Notes under the pieces: generated by a model
What the model saw: only the letters and a program-made list of their open reading frames with translations
What the model was told of the DNA's origin: nothing
The model's database searches: none
Shown: in pieces, positions 12,393-45,145 of the stretch
Layout: each line of letters begins with the position of its first letter
How positions within the stretch are numbered: position 1 is the stretch's first letter
Position numbers and translations under genes: made by a program
NCBI GenBank assembly: GCA_030522415.1
Contig: CM060121.1
Coordinates: forward strand, 5,236,476-5,300,475
Reading direction: 5' to 3'
Origin: Channallabes apus
Lineage: Eukaryota > Chordata > Actinopteri > Siluriformes > Clariidae
Length of the DNA: 64,000 bases

Positions 12393-13659
12393 ATAAGTTT
12401 AGGCACTCCTTGATAAATAACAGATTTTGGTGTTTAGGTTTTAGACCTCAATCAACTCGTTAGATCTGATGCATGGCAGCTGTCATTAGTACATTATTGT
12501 CATTATGCCAATTTCAAAGCTTTTTAAATACTTTGACTCTTCAAACCTTGGGTTCCTCTAAGCAGCTGTGTACGACTCTGAAAATGAAACTTATTGAGGC
12601 CCACAAATGCAGGAGAAGGCTACAAGAAGGTAGCAAAGCATTTTCAGCTTGCAATTTCCACAATAAGAAAGGTAATTAAGAGATGGCAGTTCAGGGGAAC
12701 TGTGGAGGTGAAGAGGAGATCTGGAAGCCCAAGAAACTCTTGGAGATAACTGCTCATATGCTGGTCAAAACCTCTATTTGACAAAGGCAAAAACCCTACA
12801 GGAAGATTTAGCAAACTCAAGAGTGGTTGTGCATCGATCCACAAGACCTTCATGGAAGAATCAGCAGAAGGGAACCTTACTTGCGTCCCCATCATAAATC
12901 CAACGTCAGAAGTATGCACCAGTACATCTACAGAAGTCTGATGCGTTTTGGAAACAAGTGCTGTGAACTGATGAAGTTAAAATAGAACTCTTTGGACACA
13001 ATCAGCAAAGGCATGATTGGAAAAAAAAGGAGCAGTATTTCATGAAAAGAACACCTTGCCAACTATTAAGCATGGGGGTGGATCTATCATGCTTTGGGGT
13101 TGTGTTGCAGCTAGTCGCACAGGAAATATTGCATGGATGGAGAGACGAATGGATTCCGCTAAATACCACCAAAATCTAAAAGCAAACACCATCTGTAAAA
13201 AAGCTGAAGCTGAAAACAGGATGGCTTTTCCAACAGGACAATGATGCTAAATATACCTCGAAATCCACTATGGAATACCTCAAGAGGCGCAAATTGAAGG
13301 TTTAGGAATGGCCTCACAATCTCCTGATTTAATCATCATTGACAATGTGTGGGTAGATCTTAAAGAGCTGTGCATGCAAGACGACCAAAGAATATTACCG
13401 AACTAGAAGCCTTTTGCAAGGAAGAATGGGAGAAAATCCCAAGTACAAGAATTGAAAGACTTTTATCTGGCTATAAAAAGCATTTGCAAGCTGGGATATC
13501 TGCCAGAGGAGGTGTTACTACAGTAAGTACTGATTATGTAGGGTGCCCAAACTTTTAATGTTTTTATTTTTTATCTTTGTTCAGTTATGACATAAAAAGT
13601 AACTATGCATCAAATCTGTTATTTATCAAGGGGTGCCTAAACTTTTGCATAAGACTGTA
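12393..13659 (+). mobile_element. Tc1-like transposon with decayed transposase (copy 1)
   Basis: Inverted ends are visible: AGTTTAGGCACTCCTTGATA on the left, and on the right a sequence whose complement reads TA then CAGTCTTATGCAAAAGTTTA. Between them are pieces of a Tc1-type transposase on the plus strand, including a helix-turn-helix part (KVIKRWQFRGTVEV, clearest in the other copy), [12 protein letters not shown] and the C-terminal EAFCKEEWEKIPSTRIERL. Stops and shifts separate the pieces. The outermost left bases are lost. The surviving terminus is CAG next to TA, which fits the footprints described under findings. Confidence 0.85.
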
Positions 13660-15185
13660 AATTCCCAATATTGTGATGCTACTGTACAGTATGTGTGTTT
13701 GATTAAACGCTGAAAAATTTATGTTAATGTTATTATTTTATTTTCCTCTTTGGTCCTTTCTGGGAATTTGACTTTAGGAGACAGTCTCAATGATATCTCA
13801 CACAATATACAGAACAGTATGATGCACAGTTTTTATTATTATTGTAGCAAACAAATGAACGAAAGTATTTTCGTATCTGATGATGAATTATTTCTTCAAA
13901 GAGGAGATTCATACTGTAGAGGCACAGATACTCTTTTTGGATTCGACTGTGAATTTTTTTAACAAACTAAATTAAATATTTTTTTGCACAATATAAACAA
14001 TAACCATTAAAGACTCAATGATTCTAAGAATGATGAAGCAGCAGACATGTCATGCAGCACCACCCAATACACTGTCTTGATAATGTTTCTGGCCTTTTGT
14101 ACTCTACGACCCAATCACAACTGATGAAGTTTCTACATTTCTCACAATTTCTTTAAATAAAAAAATAAAAAAATAAATTCATCCACATTTTATATTTCAC
14201 ATTATATCTGTACATTACTTATCATGCTTTCGTATTGTCTAAAAGTAAGGGTATGATGGCATTCCACAAATTGTACTTTTTTCTAAATTATATGTTTTAA
14301 CTCAGTATAATGGAAATAAAGCAATGTGTGTGAATGTTGATAATGGTGTTTGTTTTTTTTTTTAATTAAATGTTTATTCTGAATTCATGGAATGAGTCTT
14401 TAGTTTCAGTTAAAGGTAAGGGTGTAAGAAAATTTTCAGGAGGTCTTTAGACTGGGAGGCTTTACAGTCTCTTAGTAACATACAGTAAGCTGTATCTTCA
14501 TGAAAAAAAGTGCAGTTGCAGGTTGTTGATTCTGCTATAATTTAAATGATCAATTAAATTAGCTTTTTTGTTGATTGTTTTTATTTTTTCATTTACTGTA
14601 AATTAAATCATACAACAGTATATTCTAAAACAGAATCATAAATGCCCCGCTGCAAAGTAATAACCGCTGTATGTTTATAAATACTGTAAGTAGGAGAACA
14701 TAAACATAAATTTCCTGTCTGGCAGGTGCAGGTTATACAGATTAATCAGCCTCAAGAATTCTGGATAATTGCCATCTCACGCATGGCGGCTCTTCGTGAT
14801 TGTCCTCTGCTGGTCGCCATCGGTGTGGCGTCTCCATTTAAAAGAACATTCTTAACTTTAGGGATGTTAATGTTAATAAGACATATTAATGTTACAGTCA
14901 TCTGTCAGTCAGGGTGTCTTTGTGCTTTTCTTTTCCCATAAAATAAAAAGACACAAATGGTGGCATTCGTTTTTTTTTTTTAGTTTATTTGTTTTTTACC
15001 CCTTGAAAATGTCTACAAATGTATTAATGCGAATATTGAATGAACATTAATAAGTAACTCAAACTAGTCAGTCAGTCAAGTGGTAACATTTTAGTCACAG
15101 ACAATATAAACCTTTTGGTTCTTTGACTTTCATGAGGACACAGCTTATGAAAATATGAGCTGATCACGTGACTATAGCAAGCATG
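13660..15185. other. AT-rich V-flanking DNA
   Basis: No gene found. Part near 13,740-13,830 resembles DNA next to the V pseudogenes at 26.7 and 62.1 kb. Several TACAGTA/TACTGTA heptamers occur (13,683-13,693, 13,914, 14,482, 14,594, 14,683). Confidence 0.5.
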
Positions 15186-15223
15186 TGTTTTTGTACTGGT
15201 GTCTAAGCAGAAGTATCACTGTG
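15186..15223 (-). promoter_or_regulatory. V recombination signal sequence, 22-bp spacer
   Basis: CACAGTG (15,217-15,223), a 22-bp spacer and ACAAAAACA (15,186-15,194) on the minus strand. The one-base-short spacer is shared by the V genes at 35.5 and 43.7 kb. Confidence 0.85.
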
Positions 15224-15672
15224 TGTCTGGCGCAGTAATACACTGCAGTGTCTTCTGTCTTCACGCTGCTCATGTGCAGATACACCTGCATCTTACTGTT
15301 GTCTCTGGAGACGGTGAAGCGACCGTTAACTGCACTCGAGTAAAACTTCCTATCACTATCACCTTCAATAATTGCAACAAATTCCAGCCCTTTTCCAGGA
15401 GCCTGTCTGTTCCAAGCCATCCAGTAGCTACCAAAGCTAAATCCAGATGCTGTGCAGGTCAGTTTATGAGACTGACCAGGTTTAATGATCACTGGATCAG
15501 ACTCGATCAGTGTCTGACTGCAGGAATCTGTAATACAAGAATATACAATGATCAGTGTTAAAGAAAAAAAAAGAAAGAAGAAAATTATTTTAAAAATATG
15601 TATTAAATATTTATACTGACATTGAATGAAGATTATTAGAGCAAAGTAAATCGAGACTCTGTTTAGTCCCAT
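15224..15672 (-). CDS. IGHV gene, family 2 ([10 protein letters not shown] type)
   Basis: Leader exon 15,621-15,672 ([17 protein letters not shown]) uses a GTCAGT donor in phase 1; the V exon is 15,224-15,537. Residues: first cysteine (KLTCTASGF), [33 protein letters not shown] and [10 protein letters not shown]. There is no internal stop. The residue after the framework-2 tryptophan is asparagine (WNRQ) instead of isoleucine, a buried position, which might affect folding. Two bases are missing at the V-RSS boundary relative to the 35.5 kb copy, shortening the germline CDR3 end but leaving the RSS whole. Probably still rearrangeable. Confidence 0.88.
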
Positions 15673-15774
15673 TTTAAAGAATTAAAATGATTACTGTTGC
15701 TCTAAATGAACACAAACTGCTGGTATGGTGTAAAGCTGAGTGTCTCAGCCTAAATATTTGAAATGCAGAATTTT

Positions 15775-43664: not shown

Positions 43665-43702
43665 TGTTTTTGTACAGCTCTGGAGTCTGTTGTGTCAGTG
43701 TG
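43665..43702 (-). promoter_or_regulatory. V recombination signal sequence with variant heptamer
   Basis: CACACTG (43,696-43,702), 22-bp spacer, ACAAAAACA (43,665-43,673). The heptamer keeps the essential CAC but has C for G at position 5, which may lower recombination. Confidence 0.75.
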
Positions 43703-44131
43703 TATCTCGTACACAGTAATAAACAGCCGTGTCTTCAGCTTTCAGACTCTTCACTTCTAGGTACAGCATGTTTTTATTGGTGTCTTTAGTGATGGAGAAC
43801 TGGCCCTGCAGAGACTGAGTGAATCCAGTGCCAGTGCCAGCATCAATGTATCCGATCCACTGCAGTCCTTGTCCTGGTTTCTGACGGATCCAGTCCATCC
43901 AGTAGCTCATTGAGAATCCGGAGACAGTACAGGACAGAGTGACTGACTCTCCAGGTCTCTTCACCACGGGAGCAGAGGAGGTCAGGGACTGTCCATAAGA
44001 ATCTGTAAAATAAGTATTTAATGTTATGTTTAACAGAACAGAATTATTATTTTTACTAATTTGCATCACATAAAAAAAATCTGAAACGTACATGGCATTA
44101 ATAGAAACAAAACACAATATTCTAAAATCAT
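43703..44131 (-). CDS. IGHV gene (SLTSSAPVVKRPGES type)
   Basis: Leader exon 44,092-44,131 starts at the inner ATG (MILEYCVLFLLMP; donor GTACGT, phase 1). A longer frame from 44,153 is out of phase with the V exon. V exon 43,703-44,002: first cysteine (TLSCTVSGF), SYWMDWIRQKPGQGLQWIG, a CDR2 with DAGTGTG, QFSITKDTNKNMLYLEV and [11 protein letters not shown]. No stop. It is the intact relative of the 5' half of the chimeric pseudogene at 27.3 kb. Variant RSS heptamer and weak octamer make its usage uncertain. Confidence 0.9.
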
Positions 44132-44241
44132 CCTTTTCTGAGTTCAGCTTCACCCAGATTTAAAGTGTATGTGAATGTTAGTTATCACAGAGCTCACTGG
44201 AAACTAGATCAGCCATGAACATGCTGTTTATACCCGACTCG

Positions 44242-44249
44242 ATTTGAAT
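44242..44249 (-). promoter_or_regulatory. octamer-like element of the 43.7 kb V promoter
   Basis: ATTCAAAT on the minus strand, one mismatch from ATGCAAAT, about 110 bp upstream of the ATG. Confidence 0.4.
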
Positions 44250-45145
44250 AGGGAGTGTCTACTATGAATGTATTAAATCCATAACCACAGGCTGCTCTGT
44301 GTATACAGTAGATCATTGGATGATTATACGGTCCTATGTAAAGCCACATAACACAATATTTCACTAACAGAATGTTTTCATGTAGAATTTTTTATTTATT
44401 TTTTTTTTTACAAGTCGGGAACGTTTAATTATACAATCATTGCTACAGCATTTTGAAAAGAAAAAAAAAACATCTTTAATTGTATCATAAAAAGAATGTG
44501 GTAAAGAATTATATGATACAGTATCAATAAAAAAATCTAGAGCAATTTCATAAAAGTTAATTTCATTATACAGTACAGTATGTTTCCTTAGGTCTAATAC
44601 ACTGAGTGATTATATCATGCATATGTTTTTGTATTGACATTTAAAATTGCATGTATATAATTCTGCTATATTGTATTTTAAATAGATATGGATATTAGTT
44701 AATTGTTTAGAAATTGTTTAGAAAGCAGTATTTTGTTATTATACTGTAAAAGATGTATATTGCTTTACTGTATACATCACAGCACTGTCCTTATGCATGT
44801 TAGTTATTATATAATGCTCAGGAAACAGTGACCCTGAACATGCATGCAGAAGAATTCAACTTTGTAAATTACAGCATTGCTGGAGACCTTAGCTGAGAAA
44901 TGGATTCTGTCCCCTTAATCAAACACTTCAGCCAGTACTGTACTGTAGCTGTGGTACCAGCTGATTCATTCTAGTACTCGTCCTGGTGCATGTTGTACAC
45001 ATTTAGTATAGGAATTTGTGGCTGAGTATCCAGTGATCTTACAATAGTGCTGATTGACTTTGTTCGAGCTTATGACTTTGATATAAATCTCAGGAGAACA
45101 TGCTGTGATATTTATTACACTCTCTCAGTCTTTTAAATATCTACA
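44250..45145. other. AT-rich V-flanking DNA
   Basis: The part at 44,296-44,640 recurs at 62,750-62,950. TACAGTA/TACTGTA heptamers are dense here, including a doubled TATACAGTACAGTATG near 44,571 that is single at 62,891. Confidence 0.55.

Follow-up and report, generated by a model that had tools for sequence, protein, structure and literature searches.

Five-base insertions at TA sites of the Channallabes apus genome as likely excision footprints of Sleeping Beauty-like Tc1 elements

We found that small insertions in the genome of Channallabes apus recurrently turn a TA into TACAGTA or TACTGTA, and these 5-bp insertions are very probably footprints left by the excision of Sleeping Beauty (SB)-like Tc1/mariner elements, with ends of the form TA|CAG...CTG|TA. 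At a TA within a dispersed repeat, the same site was seen empty, occupied by an element and scarred, and the footprint is the derived state there. The sequence of the footprint, its position, its target preference and its presence in unrelated repeats were all obtained here. In this genome, the departure of transposons does generate small insertions; the mechanism is already known, and its natural scale is the new part.

Results

Footprints between duplicated blocks

The window, the whole stretch of 64,000 nucleotides that was analysed, contains three duplicated blocks on the + strand: block A (7462..18938, partner 27684-38704), a continuation of A (20421..23347, partner 39014-41918) and block B (23350..27361, partner 58719-62747). 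The duplicates were realigned globally as eight paired pieces, excluding large gaps near 17456-17789, 18273-18410 and 44387-44516, which gave 19,517 columns with 331 mismatches (1.7%) and 77 indels. These comprised 29 indels of 1 bp, nine of 2 bp, two of 3 bp, one of 4 bp, 12 of 5 bp and two of 6 bp, with the remainder at 7-38 bp. Among the five-base indels, eight were CAGTA or CTGTA adjoining TA, and the remaining four read GCAAG (17256), GCTGA (37540), GACAG (22687) and GTATA (60196). A 10-bp indel at 36919-36932 consisted of two neighbouring CAGTA/CTGTA insertions, bringing the total to ten footprints; read as excision scars, these are nine events among the 77 indels between recent duplicates, about one in nine.

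All footprints are given on the + strand. TACAGTA was found in the A' copy at 33006..33012 and 34366..34372, where A has an empty TA at 12747 and 14134, and in the A copy at 16557..16563 and 17188..17194, where A' has an empty TA at 36800 and 37446. The A' copy also carries TACTGTA at 37126..37132 (empty TA in A at 16878), TACAGTA at 37341..37347 (empty TA in A at 17088) and an adjacent TACTGTA+TACAGTA pair at 36919..36932, a palindrome of 14 bases for which A has TATA near 16681. In the second copy of a further pair, TACAGTA lies at 41146..41152 and the partner has an empty TA at 22560. The double heptamer TACAGTACAGTA at 44569..44580, whose partner at 62894 has one TACAGTA, is either a second footprint at the TA of the first or a 5-bp tandem copy. 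All nine cases listed by the initial annotation (33006, 34366, 16557, 37126, 36919, 36926, 17188, 41146 and 44569/44574) were recovered, and the footprint at 37341 was added to them. The same annotation had proposed continuing activity, which these differences between duplicates support as excision activity within about 2% divergence only. The block B pair (4 kb, 1.35% diverged) showed no footprint differences, which counts against the excision explanation.

An identical pattern of 5-bp presence and absence would be expected if an ancestral heptamer had been lost through slippage, or deleted through microhomology, between its two TA repeats, and the ten sites of the window have no outgroup. 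However, a partner form shorter by 5 bp was found for 10 of 66 classifiable TACWGTA and only 2 of 239 other TANNNTA (Fisher p 6e-6; another 5 and 13, respectively, were unclear), where the ten rows give the single event at 44569 and 44574 two entries and leave out 36926. The claimed recurrence of CAGTA/CTGTA at TA was borne out by both the indel tabulation and this control, in which 5-bp indels strongly favoured these sequences. Such deletion would also leave the over-representation of the heptamer unexplained, and with the polarity seen in repeats, described below, we consider it extremely improbable.

One TA empty, occupied and scarred

Across the copies of a Tc1 family, one TA showed 45 insertions of 1-9 bp, and 35 of these were CAGTA (18) or CTGTA (17); two further insertions were one substitution away from these, and there were no other 5-mers. 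The TA was empty in 12,255 copies and filled in 35, so the insertion is derived at this site. Deletion of an ancestral heptamer was accordingly rejected here, on this ratio and the TANNNTA control, and random loss, which the initial annotation had set against its own reading, does not hold at this TA. In two copies (L039 and L040) the same TA was occupied by a Tc1 element, full-length at 1.63 kb and flanked by TA at either end, supporting the earlier reading of Tc1-type excision; in L037, L042 and L045 an element was present, with the left junction alone seen. A nearby non-TA control site, at which insertions alone were counted, had two, each of 1 bp.

The TA of a second, unrelated repeat bore the CAGTA/CTGTA signature in 25 of 71. 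In the duplicates and in both repeats, the TA target was changed to TACAGTA or TACTGTA with a net gain of 5 bp; at the TA of the Tc1 family, elements with TA|CAG ends occupied the same target. When the two repeat sites were pooled, CAG (27) and CTG (33) were about equal (p 0.52).

Because a Tc1 copy bearing a footprint could still be mobilised, the footprint copies of the repeats might be amplified descendants of one or a few heptamer carriers and not independent events. A single origin of five CAG copies was not formally rejected (p 0.06), and two substitutions were exclusive to footprint copies, each in two of them. Against amplification, CAG and CTG were near-equal at both repeat sites, the six footprint copies that were read (of 35) clustered in 0% of 200 bootstrap trees, and no substitution among 203 variable columns was common to all six. 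The ten window differences between duplicates are, moreover, independent of repeat-copy amplification, and we regard this origin as very unlikely.

A candidate source family

The sequence of a footprint cannot name its source family, and the resident Tc1 family is a candidate only. This family has TACAG ends, one internal 22-mer of it occurs at least 12,255 times, and its element L027:6292-7916 has an intact 340-aa DD34E transposase. The transposase contains HTH_SB, Tc3_2-type HTH and DDE_3 domains in about 340 aa, matches the SB100X catalytic domain 5cr4 (2.2e-82) and has catalytic residues D153, D244 and E279, the last two separated by 34 residues. Its inverted ends measure 217 bp (98.6%) with TA on both sides, where inverted ends of about 200-230 bp plus a TA target duplication were taken as SB-like. 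By its domains, spacing and ends it is a Tc1 DD34E element of SB-like type. A literature search found no paper for the element end GTGGTGTGAAAAA. Within the window, no TACAG...CTGTA inverted-end pairs or intact CAG-ended elements were found above background; no source thus lies beside the footprints, which counts against the excision explanation.

Genome-wide excess of the heptamer

In the whole genome (1.16 Gb), TACAGTA/TACTGTA occurred 979,603 times versus 260,532 for the reversed word, a raw count in which repeats and tandem arrays were unmasked. The non-redundant window (42.2 kb) held 49 TACWGTA versus 9.4-10.4 expected, and CACACAC was the sole word with a higher z-score. The evidence says that much of the genome-wide excess consists of scars of departed SB-like elements. 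In a 200-kb sample the excess over fifth-order composition was smaller (139 TACWGTA versus 90.3), which counts against excision, this composition itself containing most of the heptamer. A decay test with heptamers collapsed gave one-mismatch words of 327 versus 262.3 for transitions and 515 versus 496.2 for transversions, and five control words gave ratios of 1.03-1.09. Nested doubles were uneven among their forms: the 200-kb sample had TACTGTACAGTA five times and TACAGTACAGTA and TACAGTACTGTA zero times. Random re-insertion would favour TACAGTACAGTA, and this too was counted against excision.

Tandem arrays were found in which TACAGTA recurs at intervals of about 25 bases (C1 near 247.6-251.8 kb), and as the genome count was unmasked, a large part of the excess might be words inside such arrays or other repeats. 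Yet 105 of 119 neighbouring heptamer pairs in the 200-kb sample were at least 30 bases apart, and the main element itself terminates in TACAGTGG rather than in TACAGTA. Bulk heptamers also had the flank preference that insertion sites should show. Compared with all TA, the flanks of 186 heptamers preferred ATA-TA-TAT, a palindromic ATATATAT, with p-values of 2e-11, 3e-7 and 5e-13 at +1 to +3 and lesser deviations at +4 (p 0.025) and +6 (p 0.001). Arrays and other repeats are therefore an unlikely source of so large a share.

The RAG signal heptamer CACAGTG resembles the footprint words, and a RAG-related origin could be imagined if the window, with its ORFs that look VH-like by eye, were an antibody locus. 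The flanking TA is no part of that signal, however, the excess is genome-wide and the same insertion spectrum was found in dispersed repeats on many contigs. This origin was rejected by the genome-wide spread and the dispersed-repeat spectrum, and we give it next to no credence.

Discussion

The insertions are best read as the product of excision. An element would insert at a TA and duplicate it, and the transposase would later cut three bases inside each element end, leaving a 3-base element overhang on each flank. The overhangs would then be paired at their outer bases by end joining, and the central A:A mismatch would be resolved to A or T, yielding TACAGTA or TACTGTA. The cut and repair steps derive from published SB work, in which a 3-base cut inside the end is followed by end joining (PMC7827188), and not from the present data. 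The canonical SB footprint is TAC(A/T)GTA (PMC3432063, PMC4378557), and a CAG footprint has been described (PMC8151067); the CAG overhang of SB is published as well. The near-equal CAG and CTG counts and the ATA-TA-TAT flanks fit SB-type excision and repair, in agreement with the choice of the SB footprint as model by the initial annotation; the same flank preference is published for ZB and SB (PMC7913693).

As in SB, the same heptamers occur here, and the transposase of the candidate family agrees with that of SB in domains, length and catalytic spacing; unlike SB work, in which an engineered element is induced in cells or mice, this is a natural record. ZB (Tc1-8B_DR), a native active Tc1 of zebrafish, leaves footprints similar to those of SB in a plasmid assay (PMC7913693). 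C. apus likewise has a resident SB-like Tc1 with an intact transposase and the ATATATAT target preference, but the internal 22-mer of its family is present at least 12,255 times, compared with 20 full-length ZB copies in zebrafish (PMC7913693). Genome comparison has also been used for recent DNA-transposon activity in rice species (PMC4423477); that study compared plants between species, whereas all comparisons here were drawn from duplicates and repeat copies of one genome. A literature search found no report of a natural genome-wide TACWGTA excess in the parts of the sources available, and the text of a catfish repeat paper has the phrase 'transposon footprints' and nowhere 'excision'.

Transposon load is normally tallied from the copies that stayed. 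On balance, we lean slightly towards the view that Tc1 elements here leave their chief lasting mark by excision rather than by retention, with up to about 0.7 million scars forming a dated record accessible from plain word counts. If so, elements would slowly multiply their own target, a single TA becoming two with every scar. Were scars so many and readable, one could read from the repeats of one genome, with no pedigree, how fast germ-line excision has proceeded over millions of years, which targets it prefers and how its events are spread in age, and how often vertebrate DNA transposons leave versus stay would become testable. A specific mutational process would also be named, in which ATATATAT-like sites gain 5 bp and the reading frame shifts, and it may account for a noticeable part of small indels.

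Tc1-like remnants in the window

The initial annotation had ascribed TA|CAG termini to Tc1-like elements at 6.79 and 12.4 kb. The termini at 12.4 kb were unconfirmed, and at about 6791 a degenerate TACAGAGGCTTGC end is visible, belonging to a remnant with a degenerate TACAG end (6791..7100, + strand, extent approximate) that we take to be Tc1-like. A decayed Tc1-like coding remnant lies in A' at 32847..33233 (+ strand), with HTH_28 above the cut-off and HTH_SB at 24.8 bits, under the cut-off of 43; the footprint at 33006 sits within it. VH-like ORFs, judged by eye, are also present in the window.

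Footprint differences between duplicated blocks

The window (C18:5236476-5300475) contains large direct duplications at 7462-18938 and 27684-38704 (A/A'), 20421-23347 and 39014-41918, and 23350-27361 and 58719-62747 (B/B'). When the duplicates were compared by global alignment as eight paired pieces, with three large gaps cut away, we found 331 mismatches and 77 indels over 19,517 aligned columns. Single-base indels were most frequent (n=29) and five-base indels came second (n=12), with one indel of 4 bases and two of 6 bases. The initial annotation had reported CAGTA/CTGTA insertions at nine TA sites, and all nine were confirmed on realignment, with an extra site at 37341; the tabulation of indels that it had proposed showed that 8 of the 12 five-base indels were CAGTA or CTGTA at TA, the footprint of Sleeping Beauty-type excision (TA to TACAGTA or TACTGTA, together TACWGTA). 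One 10-base indel comprised two neighbouring footprints (TATA versus TACTGTATACAGTA), and thus the duplicates differ by ten footprints in nine of the 77 indel events, compared with 331 substitutions. Nine footprints lay in the A pairs (seven in the second copy, two in the first) and the tenth at 44569, while block B showed zero footprint differences over 4 kb aligned at 1.35% divergence.

As a control, each XYNNNXY word of the paired blocks was scored for a five-base-shorter form in the other copy. TACWGTA was shortened in 10 cases, kept in 56 and unclear in 5, compared with 2, 237 and 13 for other TANNNTA words and 84, 3,003 and 221 for other XYNNNXY words; many of the 84 lay within homopolymers or simple repeats, and eight were the same footprints in shifted register. 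In 42.2 kb of non-redundant window, TACWGTA occurred 49 times against 9.4-10.4 expected. An LTR retroelement at 46082-54756 (minus-strand open frames of 1,364 and 379 aa) had 3 LTR mismatches in 1,574 aligned bases, and its LTRs suggest that it is recent. TACWGTA was absent from its 8.7 kb, although positions 7462-27361 (19.9 kb) contained 32 copies.

Genome-wide excess of TACWGTA

A 200,000-base sample (5,151 masked), made up of twenty 10-kb stretches drawn from 20 contigs, contained 139 TACWGTA, compared with 33.9 expected under third-order composition, and 48 copies of the reversed word. By z-score it ranked tenth among all 7-mers and first among non-simple-repeat words; the fifth-order expectation was 90.3, under a model that already includes most of the word. 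Among TANNNTA words, CAG/CTG (139) was second to AAA/TTT (151). The whole genome (1,164,683,209 bases, 93 contigs) contained 979,603 TACWGTA, or 0.84 per kb, against 260,532 of the reversed word. Taking the mouse genome as 2.7 Gb, the mouse density is ~0.11 per kb. This uses the 'over 300,000' sites given in the portion consulted of a mouse study (PMC4378557). Two rough baselines gave an excess of 720,000-740,000 here, which is only an upper bound on footprint number because tandem-array and repeat-borne copies are included. Tandem arrays with TACAGTA every ~25 bases were seen on contig C1 at about 247635-251841.

Insertion spectra at single repeat sites

In the surveyed sequence, a usable match at another locus was available for 77 of 278 TACWGTA, and in 17 cases that match had an empty TA, compared with 9 of 327 for other TANNNTA. 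Duplicated blocks of the window accounted for nine of the 17; the remaining eight came from other places, some at match identities of just 76-85%; the clearest were position 3270 of stretch L028 (six empty copies) and position 4605 of L012 (four). The L028 site is a TA within a high-copy Tc1 family, for which every insertion of 1-9 bases was searched genome-wide. The 45 insertions comprised CAGTA (18), CTGTA (17), CCGTA (1), CTGGA (1), CGTA (2), TCAGTA (1), A (3) and TC (2), and a non-TA site 13 bases further gave a raw count of two, each of one base. The empty form was present in 12,255 exact copies, so that the TA was filled in 35 of 12,290 (0.28%) and the five-base insertion is therefore derived; the ancestral heptamer that the initial annotation had named as a possible refutation of its proposal does not apply at this TA. 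At a TA in an unrelated repeat, presumably SINE-like, 71 insertions comprised CTGTA (16), CAGTA (9), GGATA (3, a tandem copy), CAGTG, CTCTA, CGTA and CCTGTA (1 each) and 39 others, including many slippage and tandem copies. Pooled over both sites, CAG (27) and CTG (33) were even (p 0.52).

A Tc1-family TA seen empty, occupied and scarred

The left junction AATTGAGATC-TA-CAG at the Tc1-family TA occurred 28 times in the genome. Exact CAGTA footprints accounted for 18, and the remaining ten were each read: full-length 1.63-kb elements at two loci (L029/L039 and L036/L040), with both junctions seen and TA on each side; three other CAG-starting sequences seen at the left junction alone (one kind at L037 and L045, a second kind at L042); two footprints with altered flank (L034, L044); one resembling a deletion (L030); and two unrelated sequences (L041, L043). 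Given the empty copies, the two resident elements and the footprints, one TA shows empty, occupied and scarred states within a single genome. The sequence at L037:1501 and L045:39 begins CAGATGTCGCCATTAAAAAC..., and its right ends were not found in the stretches read.

For INDEPENDENCE, six Tc1 copies that carry a footprint were read, and these clustered in 0% of 200 bootstrap trees, built blind to the insertion and with one locus in twice (L036 and L040). A single origin of the five CAG copies was disfavoured, short of formal rejection (p 0.06). Nine of 203 variable columns had a minority base common to two copies; two of these were confined to footprint copies, and none was common to all footprint copies. 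The commonest nested double was the palindrome TACTGTACAGTA (L011:2749, L012:7344, L015:6751, L017:7345, L026:9655 and window 13680), although TACAGTACAGTA would be favoured if elements re-inserted into footprints at random.

Candidate source, target preference and age

A candidate family with terminus TACAGTGGTGTGAAAAACTATTTGCCCC is represented by L027:6292-7916, with inverted ends of 217 bases (98.6% alike) and an intact ORF of 340 aa containing HTH_SB, HTH_Tnp_Tc3_2 and DDE_3 domains. The ORF matched the SB100X catalytic domain (2.2e-82), with catalytic D153, D244 and E279 and 34 residues between the last two. In the copy tree, terminal branches were about 0.7-2.2% and almost every inner branch was without support. 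The footprints are not assignable to this family alone, because other CAG-starting sequences occupy the same TA.

Outward of TA, positions +1 to +3 of 186 heptamers were T 0.39, A 0.44 and T 0.51, compared with 0.32, 0.36 and 0.32 for all TA, with lesser deviations at +4 and +6. These flanks match the six-base ATATATAT surround given, in the part consulted, as the target preference of Sleeping Beauty and of ZB, the native active Tc1 of zebrafish (PMC7913693). One-mismatch heptamer words showed an excess of transitions (327 versus 262.3 expected), with transversions barely raised (515 versus 496.2), as expected if scars accumulated over time and decay like neutral sequence. The A/A' events arose within a divergence of about 2%; with the rate of 4.13e-9 in the ZB paper (PMC7913693, consulted in part), borrowed from another species, this would very roughly correspond to some 2-3 million years per lineage.

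The Sleeping Beauty footprint and its chemistry are already established in the portions consulted of earlier work (PMC7827188, PMC4378557, PMC8151067, PMC3432063), and a limited search of partly available literature found no report of natural footprint accumulation across a vertebrate genome. The interest of the finding lies in the scale and readability of the scars, the mechanism itself being known.

Other features of the window

VH-like ORFs were recognized by eye on the minus strand at 9159-9503, 15172-15681, 25046-25444, 29294-29743, 35455-35922, 43695-44159, 55474-56037 and 60427-60825, several followed by what by eye appears to be an Ig V end motif. Taken together with the Sleeping Beauty-like Tc1 elements, these ORFs indicate a bony fish. 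A coding-length tandem array at 56788-58667 has long frames open on both strands, with units TALDDDVGAC and AELNSGVGAC.
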